Shown piece after piece: positions 16,552 to 30,904 of a stretch of DNA of 64,000 bases (position 1 is its first letter; each line of letters begins with the position of its first letter). Location of the stretch: the NCBI RefSeq assembly GCF_041821025.1, contig NZ_JBGUAY010000005.1, positions 62,001 to 126,000 of the forward strand, given 5' to 3'. A model generated the notes under the pieces. That model saw nothing but the letters and a program-made list of their open reading frames with translations. It did not search any database and was not told where the DNA came from. A program made the position numbers and the translations under genes. This stretch comes from Egicoccus sp. AB-alg6-2. GTDB taxonomy: Bacteria; Actinomycetota; Nitriliruptoria; Nitriliruptorales; Nitriliruptoraceae.

Positions 16552-17181
16552 TCAGCCGCTCCTGTACCGCATGTTGCGGACGGTGATGTAGGTCTCGGCG
16601 CGCACCGGCGACTGGTCGGACAGCGTGCGTTCGAGGCGGAGGCCGATCTTGTAGGCGTCGGAGTAGGCCAGGTCGCACGCCTCCGACGGACCAGGCGTCG
16701 GAGGGGTGCACACGATCGGGTCCCCGTAGTCGTCGAAGTAGGTGAAGACGGGGTCGGAACCGTTGTCGACGGCGGTGACGAGGGTTCGGCGCGGCAGGGT
16801 CGTGAGCTCGACGACGCCGCTCTCGATGTCGGCGATGTCGCCGATGGCCGTGTCCTGGACCAGGAACTGCTGGCCGTCCTCCTCCACCACGGCGAACGAG
16901 ATGACCTGCACCTGACCGTTGCGCACGACCTCCGCACCGATCTGGGTGCCGTAGGCGCCGTTCTCGCTGACGTAGAGCGGGTCGGCGGCGCGAAGTTCAC
17001 GACCGACGCGTTGCAGGGCCACCTCGAGCTCGTGGATGGCCATGGTGCGTGCCGTGGTCGTTCGGGCGCTCTGCATCCCGGTCACGATGGCACTGACGAC
17101 CACCGATCCGACGACACCAAGCAGCACCATCGAGACGAGAAGCTCGACGAGGGTGAATCCCTGTTCCGACGATCGCTTCAT
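16552..17181 (-). CDS. Type IV minor prepilin (PilW/PulJ-like)
   Basis: 209 residues. Class III leader MKRSSEQG followed by FTLVELLVSMVLLGVVGSVV, with cleavage expected between Gly8 and Phe9 by PilD and Glu at +5 of the mature protein. The remaining part is a soluble pilin head with the basic stretch RTTTARTMAIHELEVALQRVG, as in PilW/GspJ-type minor pilins that prime pilus assembly. Overlaps the upstream large prepilin gene by 4 nt and is followed after 1 nt by the PilX-like gene. Confidence 0.85.
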   Translation of the reverse strand: MKRSSEQGFTLVELLVSMVLLGVVGSVVVSAIVTGMQSARTTTARTMAIHELEVALQRVGRELRAADPLYVSENGAYGTQIGAEVVRNGQVQVISFAVVEEDGQQFLVQDTAIGDIADIESGVVELTTLPRRTLVTAVDNGSDPVFTYFDDYGDPIVCTPPTPGPSEACDLAYSDAYKIGLRLERTLSDQSPVRAETYITVRNMRYRSG

Positions 17182-18680
17182 TCGCAGCTCGAGTCGAGTT
17201 CGACCCGGTTCGGCTGGCGGACCTCGAGCTGCGAGGACTGGACCGGACCGGCCGACCCTCCATCAGCCGTACGCGCGGCGCTGACGCTGAATCGCGTGCG
17301 GTCGTTCTTGCGGAATCCGTGGCTGTCGCCCATCGGCAACGTCAGGGTGAAGTACGTGCCGGCCGGCGAGATGGTGGCCGGGTCGGGAGGAACCATGGCC
17401 TGCGTGCGCTGCTCGCGGTTGGCGGTGTAGCTGACCGTCACGGAATAGTCGCCGGGGGTCATGCCGGTGACCAGCGCAGTCACCTCGACGGTGCGGTAGA
17501 AGCGTCCATTGGCGTCGAGGCAGACCCGATGCCGGTTGACGATCGGTGTGCCGACCGTCACGGCATACGACGTCGCCGGTTCATCCCCGCCAGGAGGCGG
17601 CGTCACGACGGGCGGCAGGGCCTCACCGGAGTCCGTGGGATCGAGGCGCTGCGGGAAGGGCGTGCCGCCCCAGAACGACGCGGTCGTCGTGCCGCCGAAG
17701 GTCTCGGTGCCCGAAGCAACGGTGAGCGAGCCGGTGACGCGAAAGGGCCGCGGTCCGTTCGGGAAGCGGTGTTCACTCGGCACGGTGCCCTCGAAGGCGA
17801 GGAACAGGCCGGTTTCGGGATCCGTGACGGACGGCGTCAGGTGCAGGGTGCGCTGCTCCAGCGGCGGTGGTGGCGCCTGTTGTGGCTCCTCCTCCGGCGG
17901 CTCGGTCGGCGCCTCCTCGGATTCGTCGACCGGTTCGGGCTCCTCCGGCACGAAGAAGTGGTCCGCGGGGATGCTGAAGTAGCTGACCGACGCGGCCTCC
18001 ACCCCCCGACTGAACCGCACCACGACGTTCAGCGGCTGCGTCGGGCTGTCCACCAGCGATCCGGCGTCGGGGCCGCGCAGCTCCATCGGCGACGGACCGA
18101 CCTGGAACTGGATGACCCGTGGACGGAGGGGGTCACCGGCCTCCGCTGGCGTGGCCGCGCGCATGCTGTCGAAGCGTTGCGTGATCGTGTTGCCCATGAC
18201 CTCCCACCGCAGGAAGGTGGTGAAGCGCTTGATGCCGCCGTCGTCCTCGTCCCAGGTGACGAGCTGGAACACCTCGTAGTCACGTCCGTCGATGGTCAAG
18301 GTCGGCGGCACGGCATAGGGCACGAGGTCACGGCGAGAGGAGCACGGGGCGGGTGGCGCGGGGCAGGCGCCCGGCCCCTCGAGGAGCACGAGGTCGCGCC
18401 CCTCGAAGGTCTCGGCGTCCGGGTCGAAGGTCGCCGCGATCTCCGGGAGGTCCGCCAGCCCGTCCAGTTCCTGGTCGTAGAGGGCGGTGTCCGACCAGGG
18501 CAACGCCTGCAGTTCCTCGTGGAGGCGATTGGCGACGGCCGTGGCCTGCACCCGGCGCTCGTTGTCGACGGCGCTGCGCCCGAAGGTGATGAGCGAGCCG
18601 GCCGCTGCCGCAAGGATGATCGAGAGCAGGCTGAACGCGACGATGAGTTCGACGAGGGTCAGACCCGCCTCGTCGCGCAT
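17178..18680 (-). CDS. Large type IV minor prepilin, about 500 residues
   Basis: Start is set at ATG 18680 so that a normal short leader (MRDEAG) precedes LTLVELIVAFSLLSIILAAA; a GTG at 18773 is in frame but would add 31 polar residues and span a hairpin. Cleavage is expected after Gly6, with Leu rather than Phe at +1 and Glu at +5. The protein is far longer than ordinary pilins: a pilin-like N-terminal third is followed by an acidic Pro/Glu stretch (EPEPVDESEEAPTEPPEEEP) and beta-rich C-terminal segments. This points to a modular tip or adhesin pilin. No family name can be assigned. Confidence 0.8.
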   Translation of the reverse strand: MRDEAGLTLVELIVAFSLLSIILAAAAGSLITFGRSAVDNERRVQATAVANRLHEELQALPWSDTALYDQELDGLADLPEIAATFDPDAETFEGRDLVLLEGPGACPAPPAPCSSRRDLVPYAVPPTLTIDGRDYEVFQLVTWDEDDGGIKRFTTFLRWEVMGNTITQRFDSMRAATPAEAGDPLRPRVIQFQVGPSPMELRGPDAGSLVDSPTQPLNVVVRFSRGVEAASVSYFSIPADHFFVPEEPEPVDESEEAPTEPPEEEPQQAPPPPLEQRTLHLTPSVTDPETGLFLAFEGTVPSEHRFPNGPRPFRVTGSLTVASGTETFGGTTTASFWGGTPFPQRLDPTDSGEALPPVVTPPPGGDEPATSYAVTVGTPIVNRHRVCLDANGRFYRTVEVTALVTGMTPGDYSVTVSYTANREQRTQAMVPPDPATISPAGTYFTLTLPMGDSHGFRKNDRTRFSVSAARTADGGSAGPVQSSQLEVRQPNRVELDSSCE

Positions 18681-18719
18681 GGGCTTGCCGTCGGTTCTCA
18701 CGTCCGGGCACTCCGACAC

Positions 18720-18752
18720 GTGTGGAGGGACCGCGATCCGGTCCCTCCACAC
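18720..18752 (-). repeat. Perfect 14-bp inverted repeat with 5-nt loop between pilus genes
   Basis: Arms GTGTGGAGGGACCG (18720-18733) and CGGTCCCTCCACAC (18739-18752) pair without mismatch around CGATC. It lies in the 89-nt space between the PilP-like gene and the large prepilin. No T-run follows on the minus strand. It may be a GC-only terminator or attenuator, or an RNA-stabilising end that sets the pilMNO-PilP messages apart from the prepilin genes. Confidence 0.75.
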
Positions 18753-18769
18753 ATCGGCACCTCGACCGG

Positions 18770-19564
18770 TCACCTTGAGCTGGCCGGGGCCACTGGTTCG
18801 GCCTCCAGGCAGAGTCGAATGGCACCCTCGACATGCAGCACCTCGGTGCAGGTCCCGTCGATGGCCAGGAGCACGAACTCGTCCGCGAACGACTGGCCGG
18901 GCACGACGCCGTACAGGCGGGGACCGACGCGGATGACGGCGAAGGCCGAACCGTCACCGATGGGCTGGACGGCAGCCAACGTCACCGGCCTGCCGGCGCA
19001 GAGGATGATTCCGTCCTGCAGTGTGCAGGTCGGCGCGCTCGGATCCGGAGCGGGCTCGGTCGGCTCGGGTGACGGCGGCAACGGGACGACGGGTTCCGTC
19101 GGCTCGGGAGCCGGTGGCACCGGCGTCGGTTCCACCGGGATCCACGGTGCGGGCTGGGAGGGATCCGGTTCCCACGGCACCGGCTCGGTGACCGGCGGTG
19201 TCGGCGCTGGCTCGGAGGGTGTCGGCGTCGGGGTGGGATCGACGCCCTCGTCTGCAGCTGCCGGCTCGGGCACGACCGGCTTGAAGGGGTCGTAGGAGAG
19301 CAGCAGTTCGACGGCGTCACCCTGCGTCGTGGCCTCGGCCGGCGTGGCGTGCCCCTCCTCCGCGACCGGTGACTCCTCCGCCGCGTCGGTCCCGTCCTGT
19401 GTCGCTGCGGGTGCGACCGGCAACGACGTCGGTGACTTCCACAACAGGCTGGCACCCAGCACGGCGACGGCGAGGAGCGCCAGGATCCCGAGGACGACGA
19501 GGAGCCTGGACGGACGTCGGGACGTCACGGCTTCCATCGGTGCGGTGGTTGTCGTCGACATCAT
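18770..19564 (-). CDS. PilP/GspC-like bitopic pilus assembly protein
   Basis: 264 residues. One membrane segment (LLVVLGILALLAVAVLGASLLW, about residues 21-42), then a long Pro/Glu/Thr-rich linker (about residues 55-175), then a small C-terminal domain of about 80 residues. A YDPFKPVV motif before the linker recalls the DPF signature of PilP, and the last domain (GDGSAFAVIRVGPRLYGVVPGQ) resembles the HR-type domain of PilP and GspC. Position directly after pilO supports this. In a cell without outer membrane secretin its partner would differ from the Gram-negative case. Overlaps pilO by 4 nt. Confidence 0.65.
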   Translation of the reverse strand: MMSTTTTAPMEAVTSRRPSRLLVVLGILALLAVAVLGASLLWKSPTSLPVAPAATQDGTDAAEESPVAEEGHATPAEATTQGDAVELLLSYDPFKPVVPEPAAADEGVDPTPTPTPSEPAPTPPVTEPVPWEPDPSQPAPWIPVEPTPVPPAPEPTEPVVPLPPSPEPTEPAPDPSAPTCTLQDGIILCAGRPVTLAAVQPIGDGSAFAVIRVGPRLYGVVPGQSFADEFVLLAIDGTCTEVLHVEGAIRLCLEAEPVAPASSR

Positions 19565-22897: not shown

Positions 22898-23332
22898 TCA
22901 CTCCCAGGGCGAGTTGGCCAAACCGCCGTCAGCGGCGTCGTACACCAGCGTGTTCTCCCCGTCGTCCAGCAAGGCGTGCGTACCCGTGATGGTGTAGGTG
23001 TTGCCATCAGGGGCGTAGCTAAGCGTGACATTGTCCGAGATCGTGACCGAGACGCCGGAATCTGCGCCGTCTACGAGCAGTGGTTCCGTGGCTGGACCTT
23101 CAGTCTCGCCGAGAGCATCGGGATAGACACCGTCGCGGGTCATGACGGTTTCGATCTGAATGGCGGCGTTGCGGAGGTCGGACTCGACGGCGGAGCGCCA
23201 CGCGTTCTCGCGCTGGTTGAGGAACACGGGGATGGCGATCGCGGCGAGGATGCCGATGATGAGAACCACGACGAGCAGTTCGATGAGGGTGAAGCCCTCT
23301 TCGTCCCGCTTGGTGCGGATGGTGCTGAGCAT
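22898..23332 (-). CDS. pilA: Major type IV pilin (PilA-like)
   Basis: 144 residues. Short leader MLSTIRTKRDEEG, then FTLIELLVVVLIIGILAAIA, with cleavage expected between Gly13 and Phe14 and Glu at +5. A helical spine and a compact head (about residues 55-144) rich in Asp, Thr and Gly follow, with no cysteine pair. Start ATG 23332 has AAGGAG 6 nt upstream, which can be masked by an upstream complementary segment. Single-gene unit between the riboswitch-like leader and a strong terminator, as expected for an abundant pilin. Confidence 0.93.
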   Translation of the reverse strand: MLSTIRTKRDEEGFTLIELLVVVLIIGILAAIAIPVFLNQRENAWRSAVESDLRNAAIQIETVMTRDGVYPDALGETEGPATEPLLVDGADSGVSVTISDNVTLSYAPDGNTYTITGTHALLDDGENTLVYDAADGGLANSPWE

Positions 23333-23338
23333 GGAACG

Positions 23339-23421
23339 CTCCTTGGATGATGGCGATGATGAACCTGTGCGACGTCCCCGCTCGCTTCCCCTGCACAGGC
23401 CCCATCGGCGATGGAGCGTCC
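23339..23421 (-). promoter_or_regulatory. Anti-Shine-Dalgarno pairing upstream of the pilin gene
   Basis: The segment GGACGCTCC (23421-23413), two bases after the aptamer's closing helix, is complementary to GGAGCGT-T-CC that holds the pilin Shine-Dalgarno (AAGGAG, 23344-23339): seven pairs, one bulged base, then two pairs. Between them a CCTGTGC/GCACAGG stem (23399-23393 with 23370-23364) could bring the two segments together. A competing hairpin CCATC-GCC-GATGG overlaps the end of the anti-SD. Whether ligand opens or closes the site cannot be decided by eye. Confidence 0.55.
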
Positions 23422-23422
23422 T

Positions 23423-23520
23423 GCGCGAGGCAGCCCGGCCGACCTGCCCCGATGAAGGTGGGGTGAGGTCCCGTTGGCGTTGCTCGCCCGCCTCTCGACG
23501 GAGTCGCCCTTGTCACGCGC
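23423..23520 (-). ncRNA. Candidate cyclic-di-GMP-I (GEMM-like) riboswitch aptamer
   Basis: A 98-nt leader folds like the c-di-GMP-I class. GCGCG (23520-23516) pairs with CGCGC (23427-23423) as P1. AAGGGC then leads into a 6-bp hairpin UCCGUC-GAGA-GGCGGG with a GNRA tetraloop, followed by CGAGCAACGCC where the Vc2 RNA has GACGCAAAGCC. A second arm GACCU/AGGUC with inner CCCC/GGGG follows, then GGCCGGGCUGCC. Counterparts of Vc2 G20, A47 and C92 are kept, but A22, A24, A42, C43 and A48 differ. It lies about 15 nt after a predicted transcription start and ahead of a pilin, a common GEMM target. Confidence 0.55.
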
Positions 23521-23541
23521 TTGCGGTTGGTCTCCCGAGTC

Positions 23542-23568
23542 ATCGGCCGCGGGCGTGACCTACTTGAG
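23542..23568 (-). promoter_or_regulatory. Sigma-28-like promoter motif upstream of the riboswitch-like leader and pilin
   Basis: CTCA (23568-23565) and GCCGAT (23547-23542) are separated by 17 nt; the full boxes are GCTCAAG and GCCGATGA. The predicted start of transcription, near 23535, is about 15 nt before the P1 helix of the candidate aptamer, giving a pilin leader of about 200 nt. One of three matching sites in the pilus block. Confidence 0.62.
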
Positions 23569-23608: not shown

Positions 23609-24847
23609 TCAGCCGATCATCTCGAAGATCTTGAACATCGGCATGTACAGCGCGATCACCATGCCGCCGACGATCCCGCCGATGACGCCGATCATCAGCG
23701 GCTCCATCAACGCCGTCAGCTGTTCCGTCATCGTCTCGATCTCGGTGTCGTAGAAGTCCGAGATTTTGCCGAGCATCCCGTCGATGTTGCCCGTCTCCTC
23801 ACCCACCGCGATCATCTGGACGACCATGGGTGGGAACACCTCGTGCTGGGACAGCGGCCGGTTCATCGACTCGCCCTGGCGGACCGAGTCCTTGACGTCA
23901 GTCACCGCGTTCGCGATCGGGCCGTTGTTGACCGTCTCGGCCGTGATCTCGAGCGCCTGCAGGATCGGCACACCTGCTGCCAGGAGCGTGGAGAGGTTGC
24001 GGGCGAAACGCGTCAGTGCGATCTTGTGGAACAGCGAACCGAAGACTGGCAGCCGAAGCTTCATCACGTCGAGGACGAACCGGCCCTTCTCGTTGGCGCG
24101 GATCTGCTTGTAGGCGGTCCACAGCACCACCGGCACGACGATGTACGTGATGATCCCGAGCCACGACGTCACGAAGTCGGACGCCCTCACCAACTGCGCG
24201 GTGAGCCAGGGCAACTCGCCACCGAGATCGGCGAACATGCCGTCGAAGACCGGGACGATGAAGATCAGCATCACGGTGGACAGGCCGATCGCCATGAAGA
24301 AGACGATCACCGGGTACGTCATCGCGGACTTGATCTTGCTGCGCAGCTTGACGTCGGCCTCCAGCATCATCGCGACGCGCAGGAGCACCTGGTCGAGCAT
24401 GCCGGCCGCCTCACCGGCCTTGACCATGGCGATGTAGAGCTTGGGGAACACCTTGGGGTGCTCGGCCATCGCGCCCGACAACGACGCGCCGGCCTCGACC
24501 TGACCACGGATCTCGTCGATGACCTCGGCGAGCTTCTTGTTCTCGGTCTGGTCGTGGAGGATCGACAGCGCCCGGATGAGCGCCAGGCCGGAACTGATCA
24601 TGGTCGCGAACTGGCGCGAGAAGATCGCCAGGTCCTTGAGCTTGACCCGGTCCGACAGACCGGGGATCCGGATCTCGGTGTTGAGACCCTTCTCGCTGAC
24701 CTCGGTGATACGCACGGGCGCGTAGCCCATCGAGGTCAGCTTGCTGGCCACCGCCGCGGAGGAGTCGGCCTCGAGCTGGCCGGAGACGAGCTTTCCGCTG
24801 CGGTCGCGGACCTGGTAGTCGAACTTGCTGAGTGTGGACGTCGCCAT
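23609..24847 (-). CDS. pilC: Type IV pilus platform protein PilC
   Basis: 412 residues. Inner-membrane GspF-family platform that couples motor rotation to pilin insertion. Two homologous cytoplasmic repeats (about residues 70-190 and 270-395) show the family pattern: FSRQFATMISSGLALIRAL in the first and FARNLSTLLAAGVPILQALEI in the second. Membrane segments occur near residues 172-192, 215-240 and at the C-terminus (GVIGGIVGGMVIALYMPMF). Follows pilT after 11 nt in the same operon as pilB and pilT. Confidence 0.95.
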   Translation of the reverse strand: MATSTLSKFDYQVRDRSGKLVSGQLEADSSAAVASKLTSMGYAPVRITEVSEKGLNTEIRIPGLSDRVKLKDLAIFSRQFATMISSGLALIRALSILHDQTENKKLAEVIDEIRGQVEAGASLSGAMAEHPKVFPKLYIAMVKAGEAAGMLDQVLLRVAMMLEADVKLRSKIKSAMTYPVIVFFMAIGLSTVMLIFIVPVFDGMFADLGGELPWLTAQLVRASDFVTSWLGIITYIVVPVVLWTAYKQIRANEKGRFVLDVMKLRLPVFGSLFHKIALTRFARNLSTLLAAGVPILQALEITAETVNNGPIANAVTDVKDSVRQGESMNRPLSQHEVFPPMVVQMIAVGEETGNIDGMLGKISDFYDTEIETMTEQLTALMEPLMIGVIGGIVGGMVIALYMPMFKIFEMIG

Positions 24848-24858
24848 CGTTTCGCCTC

Positions 24859-26475
24859 TCAGGCCCGGCCGGCGAGACGCTGGAACTCGGCCACGTTGTT
24901 GGCCTTCTCCAGCGCCGCGTCGTAGGTCACCCTGCCCTGCTTCACCAACGTGGCCAGGGACTGGTCCATCGCGACCATGCCGTGCTGCGCACCGGCCTGG
25001 ATCGCGCTGTAGAGCTGGTGCGTCTTGCCCTCACGGATCAGGTTCTTCACCGCGGAGGTCGCCGTCATGATCTCGACCGCGGCAGCGCGGCCGGCGCCGT
25101 CGGCGGTCTTCATCAGCGTCTGACACACGACCCCCTGCAGCGCACCGGCGAGCATCACGCGGATCTGTTCCTGCTGGTGCGGTGGGAACACGTCGATGAT
25201 GCGGTCCACCGACTGCGGCGCGTCCTGGGTGTGCAACGTGCCGAAGACGAGGTGGCCGGTCTCGGCCGCGGTCAGCGCGATCTGGATCGTCTCCAGGTCG
25301 CGCATCTCGCCGACCAGGATCACGTCGGGGTCCTGACGCAGGACGTGCTTGAGCGCCTGCGTGAACCCGTGGGTGTCGGCGCCGACCTCGCGCTGGTTGA
25401 CGACCGACCGCTTGTGCTTGTGCAGGAACTCGATCGGGTCCTCGACCGTCATGATGTGCGACGGACGGTTGCGGTTGATCAGGTCGATGATCGAGGCCAG
25501 CGTCGTCGACTTGCCCGACCCGGTCGGGCCGGTCACGAGCACGAACCCACGCGGGAGGTAGGCGAAGTTGGCCACCTGCTCCGGGATCCCGAGCTTTTCG
25601 AGCGGCAGGATCTCGAACGGGATGACACGCATCACCGCACCGATGGAGTCGCGCTGCATGAACACGTTGACGCGGAACCGGGACTTGCCCGGGATCGCGT
25701 AGCTCATGTCCAGCTCGAGCTCGTTCTCGAACTGTTCGCGCTGCTTCTGCGTCATGATCGAGTACAGCAGCTTCTGCAACTCGTCCGGCGTGCAGACCGG
25801 GTAGTCCTCCAGCGGCGTGAGGTCGCCGTGCACGCGGATGGTCGGCGGGACGCCGGCCGTCAGGTGCAGGTCCGAGCCCTTGCGGTCGACGAGCTCGCCC
25901 AGGAGCTCGTCGAGGTCGATGACGGCCGTCTCCTCGTGCGGCAGCGCCGGATCGCCGACATCGGCCATGGTCATCGCAGCCGGCGGTGGCGAGGTCGGAG
26001 CCGCTCCCCCGTTGACGACCGTCAGCGACGGCGCGCCGACACCCGCACCGACCGGCGCGACCTGCGCCGCGATCGCCTCGGTCAGCTCCCGCCTGGGAGC
26101 CAGCGCGAGCGCCACCCGCATCCCCAGTTCCTGCTCGAGGCGCGGCCGCAGCGTCGCGTCGTGAGGATCGGCGACGGCGACCACGATCTCGTCACCGGCG
26201 CCGAAACCCACCGGGAGCGCCAACAGCTCACGCGCCACCTCGCCGGCCAGCAGCGCCGCAGCGTGTGGGTCCACGTTGGCCGCGTCCACCTCGGCGTACG
26301 GCATGCCGAGCGTCTCTGCGAGCGCACGCACGAGCTGCGACTCGGTGGCCAGCTGGTGGTCGAGCAGGACCTTGGGCAGGCTGCCGCCGCCGGCCGCGGA
26401 ACGTTCCGCGGCCCAGCGCAGCTGGTCCACGGTCAACACGCCGTGGCGGACCAGTGCCTCGCCCAGTGCATCCAT
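24859..26475 (-). CDS. pilT: PilT-type retraction ATPase with an MshEN-like N-terminal domain
   Basis: 538 residues from ATG 26475, which has GGAGGAG 8 nt upstream; a further start at 26514 lacks one. The C-terminal 350 residues are a canonical PilT: VTGPTGSGKSTTLASIID (Walker A), Asp box MTVEDPIEFLH, DPDVILVGEMRD (Walker B), SAVKNLIREGKTHQ and GMVAMDQSL. Ordinary PilT is about 345-380 residues. Here about 150 extra N-terminal residues resemble the GspE/MshE N-domain of PilB (GGSLPKVLLDHQLATESQLV), joined by a Pro/Ala linker. The Arg of the c-di-GMP motif is not kept. It reverses PilB-driven assembly. Confidence 0.93.
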   Translation of the reverse strand: MDALGEALVRHGVLTVDQLRWAAERSAAGGGSLPKVLLDHQLATESQLVRALAETLGMPYAEVDAANVDPHAAALLAGEVARELLALPVGFGAGDEIVVAVADPHDATLRPRLEQELGMRVALALAPRRELTEAIAAQVAPVGAGVGAPSLTVVNGGAAPTSPPPAAMTMADVGDPALPHEETAVIDLDELLGELVDRKGSDLHLTAGVPPTIRVHGDLTPLEDYPVCTPDELQKLLYSIMTQKQREQFENELELDMSYAIPGKSRFRVNVFMQRDSIGAVMRVIPFEILPLEKLGIPEQVANFAYLPRGFVLVTGPTGSGKSTTLASIIDLINRNRPSHIMTVEDPIEFLHKHKRSVVNQREVGADTHGFTQALKHVLRQDPDVILVGEMRDLETIQIALTAAETGHLVFGTLHTQDAPQSVDRIIDVFPPHQQEQIRVMLAGALQGVVCQTLMKTADGAGRAAAVEIMTATSAVKNLIREGKTHQLYSAIQAGAQHGMVAMDQSLATLVKQGRVTYDAALEKANNVAEFQRLAGRA

Positions 26476-26500
26476 TGCGGTTCTCCTCCCGGCCGCCGTC

Positions 26501-28168
26501 TCAGACGACGACACGGCCGATCTCCTCGAGCGTGGTCCGGCCGAGCAGCACCTTCGCCAGCCCGTCCTCGCGCAGCGTCTGCATGCCCTGTTCGATGGCG
26601 GTCCGTGCGATGACCTCGGTGGACGCGCGCGAGACCGCGAGCCGCTCGATCTCCTCGGTCACCGTCATCACCTCGTGGATCGCCATGCGTCCGCGGTAGC
26701 CGGTGTTGCTGCACGCCGAGCAGCCGCTCGCGCGCGGCAGTTCGGGCCGTTCGTTGACGATGTCGGCCGGGAAGCCGGCCGCGGCAAGCATTTCCGGCTC
26801 GGGTCGCACCATCTCGACGCAGCGCGGACACACCTTGCGAGCGAGGCGCTGCGCCAGGACGCAGTCGACCGCGGAGCCGACCAGGAACGGCTCGATGCCC
26901 ATCTCGGTGAGCCGGGTCACGGCCGACGGCGCGTCGTTGGTGTGCAGCGTCGACAGCACGAGGTGGCCGGTGAGCGCGGCCTCGATGCCGATGTGCGCCG
27001 TCTCGCGGTCTCGCATCTCGCCGACCAGGACGATGTCGGGGTCCTGACGCAGGATCGATCGCAGCGCCGAGGCGAACGTCAGCCCCACCTTCGGGTTGAC
27101 CTGCACCTGGCTGATCCCCTGCAGGCGGTACTCCACCGGGTCCTCGGTGGTGATGATGTTCACGCCGGGCTCGTTGAGCACGTTCAGCGTGGCGTACAGC
27201 GTCGTCGACTTGCCCGACCCCGTCGGACCGGTCACCAGGATCGTCCCGTAGGGCTTACGGAACGCCTCCTCGAAGCGCTTGTGGTTGTGCTCGAGGAAGC
27301 CGAGGTCCTCGAGCTCGAGCAGGATCGACGTCTTGTCGAGGATGCGCATCACGACCTTCTCGCCGAACACCGTCGGCAGGGTCGAGAAGCGCAGGTCGAT
27401 GGCCTTGTTGTTCGACGTGACGCTGATGCGCCCGTCCTGCGGGATCCGCCGCTCGGCGATGTCGACGTCGGCCATGATCTTCAGGCGGCTGATGACGCCG
27501 GACTGGATCGTCTTGGGTGAACGCATGACCTCGTGGAGGACGCCGTCGATGCGGTAGCGGACCCGCAGGTCGCGCTCGCCGGGCTCGATGTGGATGTCCG
27601 ACGCGCCGTCGGCGACCGCCTGCGAGATCAGCAGGTTCACGAACTTGACGATCGGTGCTTCCTCGACCACGGCCCGGATGGAGCGCAGGTCGTCGTCGCC
27701 GTCCTCACCGTCGGCGATGTCGCCGGCCATCGCCTCGATGTCGTCACCGAGGTGGGCGAAGCGGTCGATGGCGGCCTGGATGTCGTCGCGCGTGGCGACC
27801 ACCGGCTGGATGTCGAGCTTGGTGATGGTGCGCACGTCGTCGATCGCGACCACGTTCGACGGGTCGCTCATCGCGACCAGCAGCTTCTCGCCGCGCATCG
27901 CGTAGGGCAGCACCGTGTGCTTCTTGAGCGTCTGGGCGCTGACCATGGTGGCCAGCCGTGCGTCCACCTCGGCCTCGGCGAGGTCGACGAAGTCGAGGCC
28001 GATCTGTTCCGCCAGCGCACCGACCAGCTGCTTCTCGCTCAGCACCCCACGGTTGACGAGGACCCGGCCGAGCGAGCCACCCTCCGCGCGCTGGACCTCC
28101 TCGGCCTGGCGCAGCTGCTCGGGATCGACGAGCTGTCGCGCCAGCAGCGTCTGCGCCAGGGACCTCAC
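26501..28168 (-). CDS. pilB: Type IV pilus assembly ATPase PilB
   Basis: 555 residues. Hexameric extension motor. An MshEN/GSPII_E_N domain fills residues 1-145 (GGSLGRVLVNRGVLSEKQLV and further). Catalytic part: SDIHIEP, VTGPTGSGKSTTLYATLN (Walker A), ITTEDPVEYRL (Asp box), DPDIVLVGEMRDRETAHI (Walker B) and STLHTNDAPSAVTRL (His box). A zinc site CPRC...CSAC lies near residues 425-460, typical of PilB and absent in PilT. It overlaps the upstream GTPase gene by 4 nt, tying the motor to the control module. Confidence 0.96.
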   Translation of the reverse strand: MRSLAQTLLARQLVDPEQLRQAEEVQRAEGGSLGRVLVNRGVLSEKQLVGALAEQIGLDFVDLAEAEVDARLATMVSAQTLKKHTVLPYAMRGEKLLVAMSDPSNVVAIDDVRTITKLDIQPVVATRDDIQAAIDRFAHLGDDIEAMAGDIADGEDGDDDLRSIRAVVEEAPIVKFVNLLISQAVADGASDIHIEPGERDLRVRYRIDGVLHEVMRSPKTIQSGVISRLKIMADVDIAERRIPQDGRISVTSNNKAIDLRFSTLPTVFGEKVVMRILDKTSILLELEDLGFLEHNHKRFEEAFRKPYGTILVTGPTGSGKSTTLYATLNVLNEPGVNIITTEDPVEYRLQGISQVQVNPKVGLTFASALRSILRQDPDIVLVGEMRDRETAHIGIEAALTGHLVLSTLHTNDAPSAVTRLTEMGIEPFLVGSAVDCVLAQRLARKVCPRCVEMVRPEPEMLAAAGFPADIVNERPELPRASGCSACSNTGYRGRMAIHEVMTVTEEIERLAVSRASTEVIARTAIEQGMQTLREDGLAKVLLGRTTLEEIGRVVV

Positions 28169-28830
28169 GAGCCGACCGCCCGGGCCGAGGCCGCGGGCGG
28201 TCCGGCGGGACCGTCGCCGGCACGCGCGCGGAGCCGCTGCGCGACCGCGTGGAGCAACGCGAGCAGGACGCGCTTTACGTCCTCACGGTCGCGGACGTCG
28301 GTGGCGAGCACCGCTACCTCGGCAGGGACGTCGAGGTAGCCGCGCACCCGGTCGAGCACGGTGGCGGTGTCGCTGTTCGGGCCGAGCTTGTTGACCGCGA
28401 CGACCAGCGGGACGTCGGCGAGGCCGGCGAAGTGCACCTGCTGGCCGCGCGCCTCCACGAGGGTCTCGGGACGTCGTGCGTCCACGACCAGCACGAACCC
28501 GAGCATGCCCTCCGCCAGGATGTCCCACATGAACTCGAAGCGTTCCTGGCCGGGCGTGCCGAACAGGTGCAGGGCGAGGTCGCGGTCGATCGCAATGCGC
28601 CCGTAGTCCATCGCCACCGTGGTGCGGCCGGAGTTGCCGCCCGCGACCGTGTCGGAGGCCCAGTCGCTCACGTCACGCTCGGTCGAGACGACCTGCACCT
28701 CGGAGATCGTCTCGATCAGCGTGGTCTTGCCGGCGTCGAACGGACCGGTGACGAGCACCTTGAAGCTGGGATGGCGGGCACTGCCGACGACCGGCCGTCG
28801 GTGGGAACCGGCGAACCGGACACCAGTCAC
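28165..28830 (-). CDS. Small GTPase of the MglA/CvnD-like class
   Basis: 221 residues. P-loop GPFDAGKTTLIE near residue 29, a switch-like TTVAMDYGRI and the G3-type LHLFGTPGQERF near residue 88. The G4 motif reads NKLG instead of NKxD, so guanine specificity may be relaxed. Such GTPases pair with Roadblock proteins in actinobacterial conservons and with MglB in myxobacterial pilus polarity. Here the Roadblock gene lies just upstream in the same operon and pilB directly downstream with 4-nt overlap, so control of the extension motor is likely (inference). Confidence 0.88.
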   Translation of the reverse strand: MTGVRFAGSHRRPVVGSARHPSFKVLVTGPFDAGKTTLIETISEVQVVSTERDVSDWASDTVAGGNSGRTTVAMDYGRIAIDRDLALHLFGTPGQERFEFMWDILAEGMLGFVLVVDARRPETLVEARGQQVHFAGLADVPLVVAVNKLGPNSDTATVLDRVRGYLDVPAEVAVLATDVRDREDVKRVLLALLHAVAQRLRARAGDGPAGPPAASARAVGS

Positions 28831-29792
28831 AGCTTTTCCACGCCGTGGATCAACCGTTGCAGGATGTTCTGGTCGACCCCGTTGTTGTCGTGCCCGCCGC
28901 CGCCCAGCCGCTCGGCGCGGACCCGGGTGTGCAGGCCGCGGGGACCGCTGCCCTCGTAGACGACGGCCGGCGGTGCCGGGATCGACGGTGCTGGTGCCGG
29001 CTCGGCCACGGGTGTCTCCGCCGCGGCAACCGGCACAGCCGGCGCCGGCTCGGGGCGCGCGAACAGGTCCTCGTCGGTGCCCGGTTCGTCGGTCATGGTC
29101 ACCTCGGCCGACACCTCGGCGGGCTCGACGGGTACCTCGGCCACCGTCGGCTCGTCCGCCGCGGCGTCTTCGGTGATCGGCGTCGCCGGCACGTCGGTGG
29201 CCGCGGCGGGAGCGATCAGGCCCTCGTCGAGCAGTTCGGCGAGGGCGCGGTGCGCCGCGTAGTCACCGCGGCCCCAGTGGGCCGCCAGCTCGGCGACCGG
29301 GCGACGGCCGTCGACCAGCGACACCAGCCGCCAGCGGTCGGCGGTCAACGTCACCGGGTTGTGGTGGTGCGGGGCGGCCAACGCGAGCACGGCGTCGCGG
29401 CCGCCGACCCGTTCGGTGAGTTGCGGCCATTCCTGCAGCCGGCGGCGTGCCTCCTCGAGCAGGGGATCGGTACGGGGCGTGTCGGGTGCGGGCGACTGCT
29501 CGGCCGGGCCCTCGAAGTGGAACCGGCCCGAGCGCAGCGACAGCAGGTCGACCAGGCCGTCGACGCGTGCGTCGTGGCGCAGGTCACCGTCGTCGGCCGG
29601 CGAGCCCGGGAGCCGGTCGGAGGCGTCGCCCGCAGGCGAGATCTCCGTGAGCAGCCCTTCGCGCACGTCGAGGCGCGCGGGCACGCCGGCGGCGTCGAGC
29701 TCCAGGCGTCCCGTCTTAGCGGACGCGTTCAGCAGCTGCAGGATGTCGAGGAGACGGAAGTCTCCGAGTTGGCCTTCGAGCACGGCACTCAC
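28827..29792 (-). CDS. DUF4388 (PatA-like N-terminal) domain protein
   Basis: 321 residues. The N-terminal 90 residues match the DUF4388 pattern: LEGQLGDFRLLDILQLLNAS, KTGRLELDAAGVPARLDVREG and a later FHFEGP. This domain occurs in proteins tied to gliding and pilus control and in PatA of Anabaena. The middle contains a winged-helix-like part (DRWRLVSLVDGRRPVAELA), and the C-terminal 100 residues are low-complexity Ala/Pro/Glu. No enzymatic motif is seen. It probably acts as an adaptor between the Roadblock protein and the GTPase, with which it is co-transcribed. Confidence 0.78.
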   Translation of the reverse strand: MSAVLEGQLGDFRLLDILQLLNASAKTGRLELDAAGVPARLDVREGLLTEISPAGDASDRLPGSPADDGDLRHDARVDGLVDLLSLRSGRFHFEGPAEQSPAPDTPRTDPLLEEARRRLQEWPQLTERVGGRDAVLALAAPHHHNPVTLTADRWRLVSLVDGRRPVAELAAHWGRGDYAAHRALAELLDEGLIAPAAATDVPATPITEDAAADEPTVAEVPVEPAEVSAEVTMTDEPGTDEDLFARPEPAPAVPVAAAETPVAEPAPAPSIPAPPAVVYEGSGPRGLHTRVRAERLGGGGHDNNGVDQNILQRLIHGVEKL

Positions 29793-30812
29793 CTACCCCC
29801 AACCGTTTGCGGACGTCGACTCCTGGCGGCCCCAGGCGTGACTCGGTGCATGGTCACCACCGGTTGCCCGACGCACCTCGAACAGCGCCTCGGTCAGCAG
29901 GTCGTGGTCGTCGGACGGACGCAGCGGCTCGGTGGCGATCACGTTGCGCAGCGCCTCGTCGGCGTCGTCGGCCGGGGCCCCCGGCGCGATCGGCGCCGCC
30001 GCCGGGCTCTCGAACGTGGCTGGAGGCGAAGCGACCGGCGAGGGGCTCGCGACGGCACGCAGTTCGCCCAGTGCCGCGAACGGCGACTCGTCGTGGTCGG
30101 TCGGCTCGGGAGCCGGCGCGGGCACGAACGGCTCGGGCTCGGGCGCGCGCTCCGTGACGGCTTCGAACGCCTCCGGCATGGGCGACGGTGCGTCGAAGGC
30201 AGCGGGCGCCTCGAAGGCGACGGGCGCCTCGAAGGCAGCGGGCGCCTCGAAGGCAGCGGGCGCCTCGAAGGAAGCGGGCGCCTCGAACGCAGCCGGGGCG
30301 TCGAACGCGGCGGGAGCGGGGGCGGCGAAGGCCTCGACGACCTCCTCGACGGGGCTGGGCTGCAGGTCGGCGGGTGCCGGCGCGGCCCACGGGTTGACGT
30401 TCGGCGCCGGCAGGTCGAGGTCGGTGTTCGGGGCCAGCAGCGTGCCGATGCGCTCGGCGGCCTGGCGCATCTCGAACAGCATGAACCCGATCTTGGCCTG
30501 GCGCGCCGCCACGGCGGCGAGGACCGCCTGGTCGCGGCAGCTCATCAGGAACACGAACCCGTGCTCGCCCTCGACGAAGACCTGGTTGAGCTGTCCCCGT
30601 CCGAGTCCGAGTGCGGCCTGCTCGCCCAGGGACAGCAGGGCCGCGCTCATGGCGCCGACCCGGTCCTCGTCCAGCTCGTCGGGCAGGGCGCTGGCCATCG
30701 GCAGCCCGTCGAACGAGACCACGGCGGCGGCCTCGACGTCGGGCGAGGAACCGAGGAAGTCGTCGAGTGCGGCGGCGAGCCTGGCCGCGCGGGTGTCGAG
30801 GTGGTCGAACAC
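29793..30812 (-). CDS. Roadblock/LC7 domain protein with a hexapeptide-repeat tail
   Basis: 339 residues; start GTG 30812 with GGAGA upstream. Residues 1-115 form a Roadblock/LC7 domain (VEAAAVVSFDGLPMASALP, then MSAALLSLGEQAALGLGRG and FVEGEHGFVFLMSCRDQAVLAAVA), the fold of MglB and CvnB that acts on small GTPases. The rest is a Pro/Ala/Glu linker that includes seven tandem hexapeptides of the type AFEAPA. The GTPase of the same operon is its likely partner. First gene of the operon Roadblock-DUF4388-GTPase-pilB-pilT-pilC. Confidence 0.86.
   Translation of the reverse strand: MFDHLDTRAARLAAALDDFLGSSPDVEAAAVVSFDGLPMASALPDELDEDRVGAMSAALLSLGEQAALGLGRGQLNQVFVEGEHGFVFLMSCRDQAVLAAVAARQAKIGFMLFEMRQAAERIGTLLAPNTDLDLPAPNVNPWAAPAPADLQPSPVEEVVEAFAAPAPAAFDAPAAFEAPASFEAPAAFEAPAAFEAPVAFEAPAAFDAPSPMPEAFEAVTERAPEPEPFVPAPAPEPTDHDESPFAALGELRAVASPSPVASPPATFESPAAAPIAPGAPADDADEALRNVIATEPLRPSDDHDLLTEALFEVRRATGGDHAPSHAWGRQESTSANGWG
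30190..30315. repeat. Seven tandem 18-bp units inside the Roadblock gene
   Basis: Seven consecutive 18-nt units close to GCCTCGAAGGCAGCGGGC on the plus strand encode seven AFEAPA-like hexapeptides on the minus strand. Units 3 and 4 are identical and the others differ by one to four bases. Such near-identical units can change in number by slippage, altering linker length. Confidence 0.9.
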
Positions 30813-30877
30813 GTGGTCTCCGTTCGCGCATGAGGTGCAGTCGGAGGCGGTCGTCGACCGCTACCCCGCTCTCCTCC

Positions 30878-30904
30878 ATCGGCTGGAGACCCCGGGCTCT
30901 TGAG
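30878..30904 (-). promoter_or_regulatory. Sigma-28-like promoter motif upstream of the Roadblock-pilBTC operon
   Basis: CTCA (30904-30901) and GCCGAT (30883-30878) are 17 nt apart; the full boxes are GCTCAAG and GCCGATGG. Predicted start of transcription is near 30871, about 59 nt before the Roadblock GTG. CGGGCT/AGCCCG around the upstream box can also form a short stem. Confidence 0.62.

Follow-up and report, generated by a model that had tools for sequence, protein, structure and literature searches.

A divergent c-di-GMP-I aptamer upstream of a type IV pilin gene in Egicoccus and the predicted layered control of its pilus by c-di-GMP

We found that, in the nitriliruptorian actinobacterium Egicoccus sp. 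AB-alg6-2, the leader preceding a type IV pilin gene is a divergent member of the known c-di-GMP-I family with a lineage-specific scaffold. In the 64,000-nucleotide stretch of contig NZ_JBGUAY010000005.1 that was analyzed (hereafter, the window), a 94-nt element with the c-di-GMP-I fold lies on the minus strand at 23425–23518, flanked by the end of pilC (23609) and the start codon of the pilin (23332). The gene that follows (22898–23332, minus strand) encodes a prepilin with an N-terminal methylation motif (PF07963, 35.6 bits; TIGR02532, 30.4 bits). The original prediction, a GEMM-I–type RNA in front of the pilin gene, was thus correct, as the element is of the c-di-GMP-I type and retains G20, A47, and C92. 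The best explanation, which we consider likely, is a riboswitch of the c-di-GMP-I class acting on pilin translation, as part of a layered gating of the pilus by c-di-GMP.

At Rfam's own cut-offs (59 bits for RF03167 and 35 bits for RF01051), no match was found in the window; the leader scores below both and is therefore not reported at default settings. A permissive scan of the window with RF03167 gave 33.1 bits (E = 4.7e-6), and the same score was obtained genome-wide (E = 8.2e-6), where the runner-up place reached 17.2 bits, 16 bits lower. The covariance search with RF01051, which had been proposed as a check, returned the leader as the sole match in the 3.7-Mb genome (E = 2.1e-4); the hit is unique and above background, but its 32.6 bits fall short of the cut-off of 35. 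Our own covariance model (R1), built from nine leaders including variants, scored the leader at 97 bits, but the leader belonged to its training set.

The secondary structure was found in the minus-strand sequence as first described, with the closing helix P1 GCGCG/CGCGC (23520–23516 with 23427–23423), AAGGGC followed by a 6-bp hairpin with a GAGA loop, CGAGCAACGCC at the place of the GEMM core, the second arm GACCU/AGGUC, and GGCCGGGCUGCC. The leader folds into P1, P2, and P3 with a GNRA tetraloop in P2. It resembles the Vibrio Vc2 RNA (c-di-GMP-I, or GEMM-I; RF01051) in P1, the GNRA loop of P2, the two-base bulge of P3, and the bases G20, A47, A48, and C92.

Alignment of relatives, also suggested at the outset, revealed covarying pairs in P2, P3, and part of P1. 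Across 98 distinct actinobacterial sequences, 93.9% of the cells were paired, a count inflated by the fitting of the alignment to the model, and double changes occurred at 18 of the 22 pairs. Changes on both sides were seen in 305 cells as compared to 83.9 in shuffles, a value reached by none of 500 shuffles, and the signal was lost when the strands were slid. The weakest helix was P1 (66.6% of cells paired), whose three outermost modelled pairs covary in relatives.

Orthologues precede the same pilin gene in three other genomes of the genus, all above the RF01051 cut-off of 35 (40.3, 37.4, and 35.8 bits). This model matched 37 of the 66 genomes of the class, while R1 matched 118 of the 396 genomes of the phylum. 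In sister lineages, the RNA preceding this pilin gene has a canonical c-di-GMP-I core. We considered whether the leader might be a decayed, nonfunctional relic, its hairpins serving only as constitutive modulators of the Shine-Dalgarno (SD) sequence. Such decay would fit the score under the threshold and the altered tertiary contacts; however, every one of the four genus members retains the variant core, which also recurs elsewhere among the lineages, the ligand bases and the GNRA loop of P2 are kept, and other families of the class have such an RNA at the same place before the pilin. Thus, a relic is very unlikely.

The proposed counterparts of the Vc2 ligand contacts were borne out by the alignment: G20, A47, and C92 (minus-strand positions 23508, 23481, and 23430) are present in the leader and in 125 of 141 aligned aptamers. 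The genome has 24 matches to GGDEF and 21 to EAL domains. Because the ligand contacts are retained and GGDEF domains are numerous, c-di-GMP is the expected ligand, and we infer that the leader senses it. It had been suggested that the leader might instead sense a related ligand, such as 3',3'-cGAMP or another cyclic dinucleotide, and core bases 23, 44, and 49 are indeed off consensus. This suggestion is not supported, since G20, A47, A48, and C92 are all unchanged, A20 and G47 are absent, the altered bases make interhelical contacts and covary with each other, the sister cores are canonical, and GGDEF and EAL domains abound; we regard a related ligand as very unlikely. GEMM RNAs of the cGAMP type carry A20, and assignment to the 3',3'-cGAMP type was rejected because the leader has G20. 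RF03167 (c-di-GMP-I-GGC) was likewise rejected as the best family: although its score is slightly higher (33.1 versus 32.6 bits), its model has G47 (consensus GCGAAGCC), presumably the source of "GGC" in its name, while the leader has A47.

The leader departs from Vc2 by the changes A23G, C44A, and A49C (23505, 23484, and 23479, minus strand). The Watson-Crick pair C44–G83 is replaced by A44·G83 (G83 at 23439), and the A-minor contact of A49 is lost. The former has been described as universally conserved among GEMM RNAs (PMC4744006), and the latter, with G45–C22, as highly conserved (PMC3764141). As two contacts considered conserved are changed, the affinity may be low. In the 141 aptamers, which are related sequences rather than independent events, the 44–83 pair was C-G in 119, A-U in 7, U-A in 2, A·G in 10, and another combination in 3. 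In a covariation test on one alignment, double changes at this pair numbered 9 cells versus 1.5 in shuffles (0 of 500). Among the same related sequences, position 49 was C or U in 10 of 10 A·G cases, a pyrimidine at 49 was found in 10 of 12 aptamers with 44–83 unpaired as compared to 6 of 129 with it paired (Fisher p = 8e-10), and G23 accompanied 21 of 22 non-C44 bases versus 4 of 119 with C44. Three C49 cases carried U83. L115, L133, and L062 had been picked up by a pattern containing the variant core, while L163, L215, L246, L243, L264, and L260 had not been so chosen. Four apparent position-44 variants (L249, L261, L051, and L016) were rejected as misaligned, the true base being C.

Judging from the compensated pairs, C44–G83 is a common, not a strictly defining, feature of c-di-GMP-I RNAs. 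A swap of partners, to C49–G83, can be put forward as a hypothesis. The divergent bases (44, 49, and 23) are structural, in keeping with the divergent subclass that had been envisaged.

An exact pattern scan of the contigs yielded 91 stretches, mostly chance matches in coding sequence, from which L062, L089, L105, L107, L109, L111, L115, L128, and L133 were retained. In Acidimicrobiia or unplaced Actinobacteria, L062, L115, L128, and L133 are variant-core aptamers that lack a downstream pilin and lie just before small secreted-looking proteins. They may overlap the end of an upstream reading frame, and in some of them, the SD seems to lie inside the 3' strand of P1. Other core changes were seen in single aptamers (L181, G44·G83; L216, C47; L032, G47), which may recognize a different ligand or may have decayed.

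Downstream of the aptamer, an anti-SD sequence, GGACGCTCC (23421–23413, minus strand), pairs over 9 bp with the SD region GGAGCGTTC (23342–23334), which includes the SD core GGAG of the pilin gene (23342–23339). The anti-SD claimed earlier is thus real, but it starts one base, not two, past the closing helix. In dinucleotide shuffles, an SD-covering helix arose by chance in 1.5% of cases for the genome of the window (G000; 9 bp), 3.1% for G041 (8 bp), and 1.2% for G042 (10 bp); the helix of the more distant G064 has 6 bp and was matched by 12.9% of shuffles. The anti-SD is retained in G041 and G042; in G040, 5 bp remain, one compensatory change included. Two further hairpins emerged from computed folds on the minus strand. 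H1b (CTCCATC-GCC-GATGGGG; 23400–23416) is able to capture the anti-SD and is replaced by CACGCC/GGCGTG in G064. H2 (CCTGTGC/GCACAGG; 23364–23399) forms the inner part of a rod that closes the SD; it is retained in G041, G042, and G040 and, with a G-U, in G064. GCGCAGG (23426–23420), which shares bases with the 3' strand of P1, can alternatively pair with CCTGTGC (23399–23393), for which it competes with GCACAGG.

These elements suggest how the leader might switch. When the aptamer folds, c-di-GMP bound between G20, A47, and C92 would close P1, which would compete with the downstream helix for GCGC. The outcome of this competition would set the fate of the anti-SD, which would be either paired with the SD (rod H2+H3) or captured elsewhere (H1+H1b). 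When the aptamer and P1 were imposed, the minimum in G000, G041, and G042 was the SD-closing rod; with P1 not imposed, H1+H1b was favored by 3.5, 0.1, and 1.7 kcal/mol, respectively. Openness of the SD is only relative here, since H1+H1b leaves part of it base-paired to the beginning of the coding sequence. The folds therefore weakly suggest an off-switch in the genus, in which the ligand would close the SD; the energy gaps are small (0.1 to 3.5 kcal/mol), and G040 and G064 depart from the off model.

The same riboswitch might work with the opposite polarity, with the SD freed and the pilin switched on by the ligand, in line with the folds computed for sister lineages. In leaders from other families of the class (L011, L111, and L109), a 5' strand, GCAAG(TCGC), captures the anti-SD, (GCGA)CTTGC, and the SD opens more with this 5' flank pairing, which makes them on-switch–like in computed folds; in L011, SD openness was 0.56 with the flank and 0.14 without it, as compared to 0.56 and 0.55 in the leader of the window. 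There is also a precedent in Clostridioides difficile, where a c-di-GMP riboswitch before a type IV pilin gene turns the pilin on (PMC4744006), although that RNA belongs to another class, c-di-GMP-II. In contrast, the P1+H1b+H2 fold is 6 to 8 kcal/mol worse than the closed rod in G000, G041, and G042, and the 5' GCAAG/CTTGC pairing was not found in the genus leaders when read by eye. We therefore regard an on-switch as somewhat less probable and favor the off-switch for this genus only tentatively.

About 50 nt upstream of the aptamer lies a predicted σ28/WhiG-type promoter, CTCAAG-N-GCCGATG (23541–23568, minus strand), from which transcription of the leader would start. It is one of five exact matches to CTMAAGN{14,16}GCCGATR in the 3.7-Mb genome, three of which fall in the pilus cluster; the reversed pattern matched twice. 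Compared with a −35 of TAAA and a −10 of GCCGATAA at the usual spacing, it reads TCAA-N16-GCCGATGA, with two mismatches in total. A looser form of the motif was found within 110 nt upstream of 69 of 137 actinobacterial c-di-GMP-I RNAs (mononucleotide shuffles, 0.7; opposite strand, 1) and before 28 of the 42 that precede a pilin. By pattern match, a second WhiG-type promoter (30877–30904, minus strand) lies before the pilus operon and a third (18752–18779, minus strand) before another prepilin gene (17178–18773). Within 18700–18780, an inverted repeat, TGTGGAGGGACC/GGTCCCTCCACA, comes immediately after the latter promoter.

The genome encodes one σ factor of the FliA/WhiG family above the cut-off, WhiG (277 bits), in a neighborhood whose names, read from the frames, are frr-pyrH-tsf-rpsB-whiG-xerC-dprA. 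It also encodes a twin-motif RsiG, with the Pfam RsiG domain matched twice (60.9 and 37.2 bits) within one 199-aa frame; the motif E(X)3S(X)2R(X)3[QH](X)3D is perfect in the first copy and has F at the Q position in the second. RsiG was found in 27 of 35 genomes of the family, including 20 of 20 with a c-di-GMP-I match, while none of the eight RsiG-less genomes had such a match (Fisher p = 3e-4, uncorrected for kinship and based on draft genomes). In Rubrobacter, type IV pili are under the control of RsiG and WhiG, acting at three promoters within the pilus cluster (PMC8325347). The system described here likewise has WhiG, RsiG, and, in its pilus cluster, three promoters of the flagellar type; it differs in that its RsiG has twin motifs instead of a single one and that its pilin mRNA additionally bears a predicted c-di-GMP riboswitch. 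The Rubrobacter paper makes no use of the word "riboswitch."

The operon upstream of the leader (23609–30812, minus strand) encodes Roadblock/LC7, DUF4388, and small-GTPase proteins, PilB and PilT, each with MshEN, and PilC. The first three genes (28165–30812) start the operon behind its own WhiG-type promoter, and the PilT-family ATPase (24859–26514; TIGR01420, 497 bits), whose MshEN is N-terminal, adjoins PilB. The MshEN domain scored 78.6 bits in PilB and 44.2 bits in PilT. With a model of the c-di-GMP motif (cut-off 38), PilB passed at 45.3 while PilT failed at 35.1, and the motif of PilT looks degenerate.

As the probable riboswitch lies just downstream of a predicted promoter for a σ factor that c-di-GMP probably restrains in its turn, pilus production seems to be gated at several levels. 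RsiG with c-di-GMP would probably restrain WhiG, and PilB would bind c-di-GMP through its MshEN, so that one signal is predicted to gate transcription, translation, and assembly. We can only tentatively extend this to layered pilin control by RsiG-WhiG, c-di-GMP-I riboswitches, and MshEN motors throughout the Actinobacteriota, together with a recurrent subclass whose interhelical lock is re-engineered, by A-U or U-A in place of C44-G83 or by a repartnering of G83 to position 49. A full-text search of open-licence papers found none that combines these elements, and an earlier description may exist elsewhere.

The leader provides a natural exception to the C44–G83 contact that was called universal, with compensatory pairs in other lineages, which makes this structural claim amenable to a mutational test. 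The more interesting inference, beyond the family assignment, is the layered wiring of the pilus. If correct, one second messenger would act on the σ factor, the mRNA, and the motor ATPase of a single pilus.
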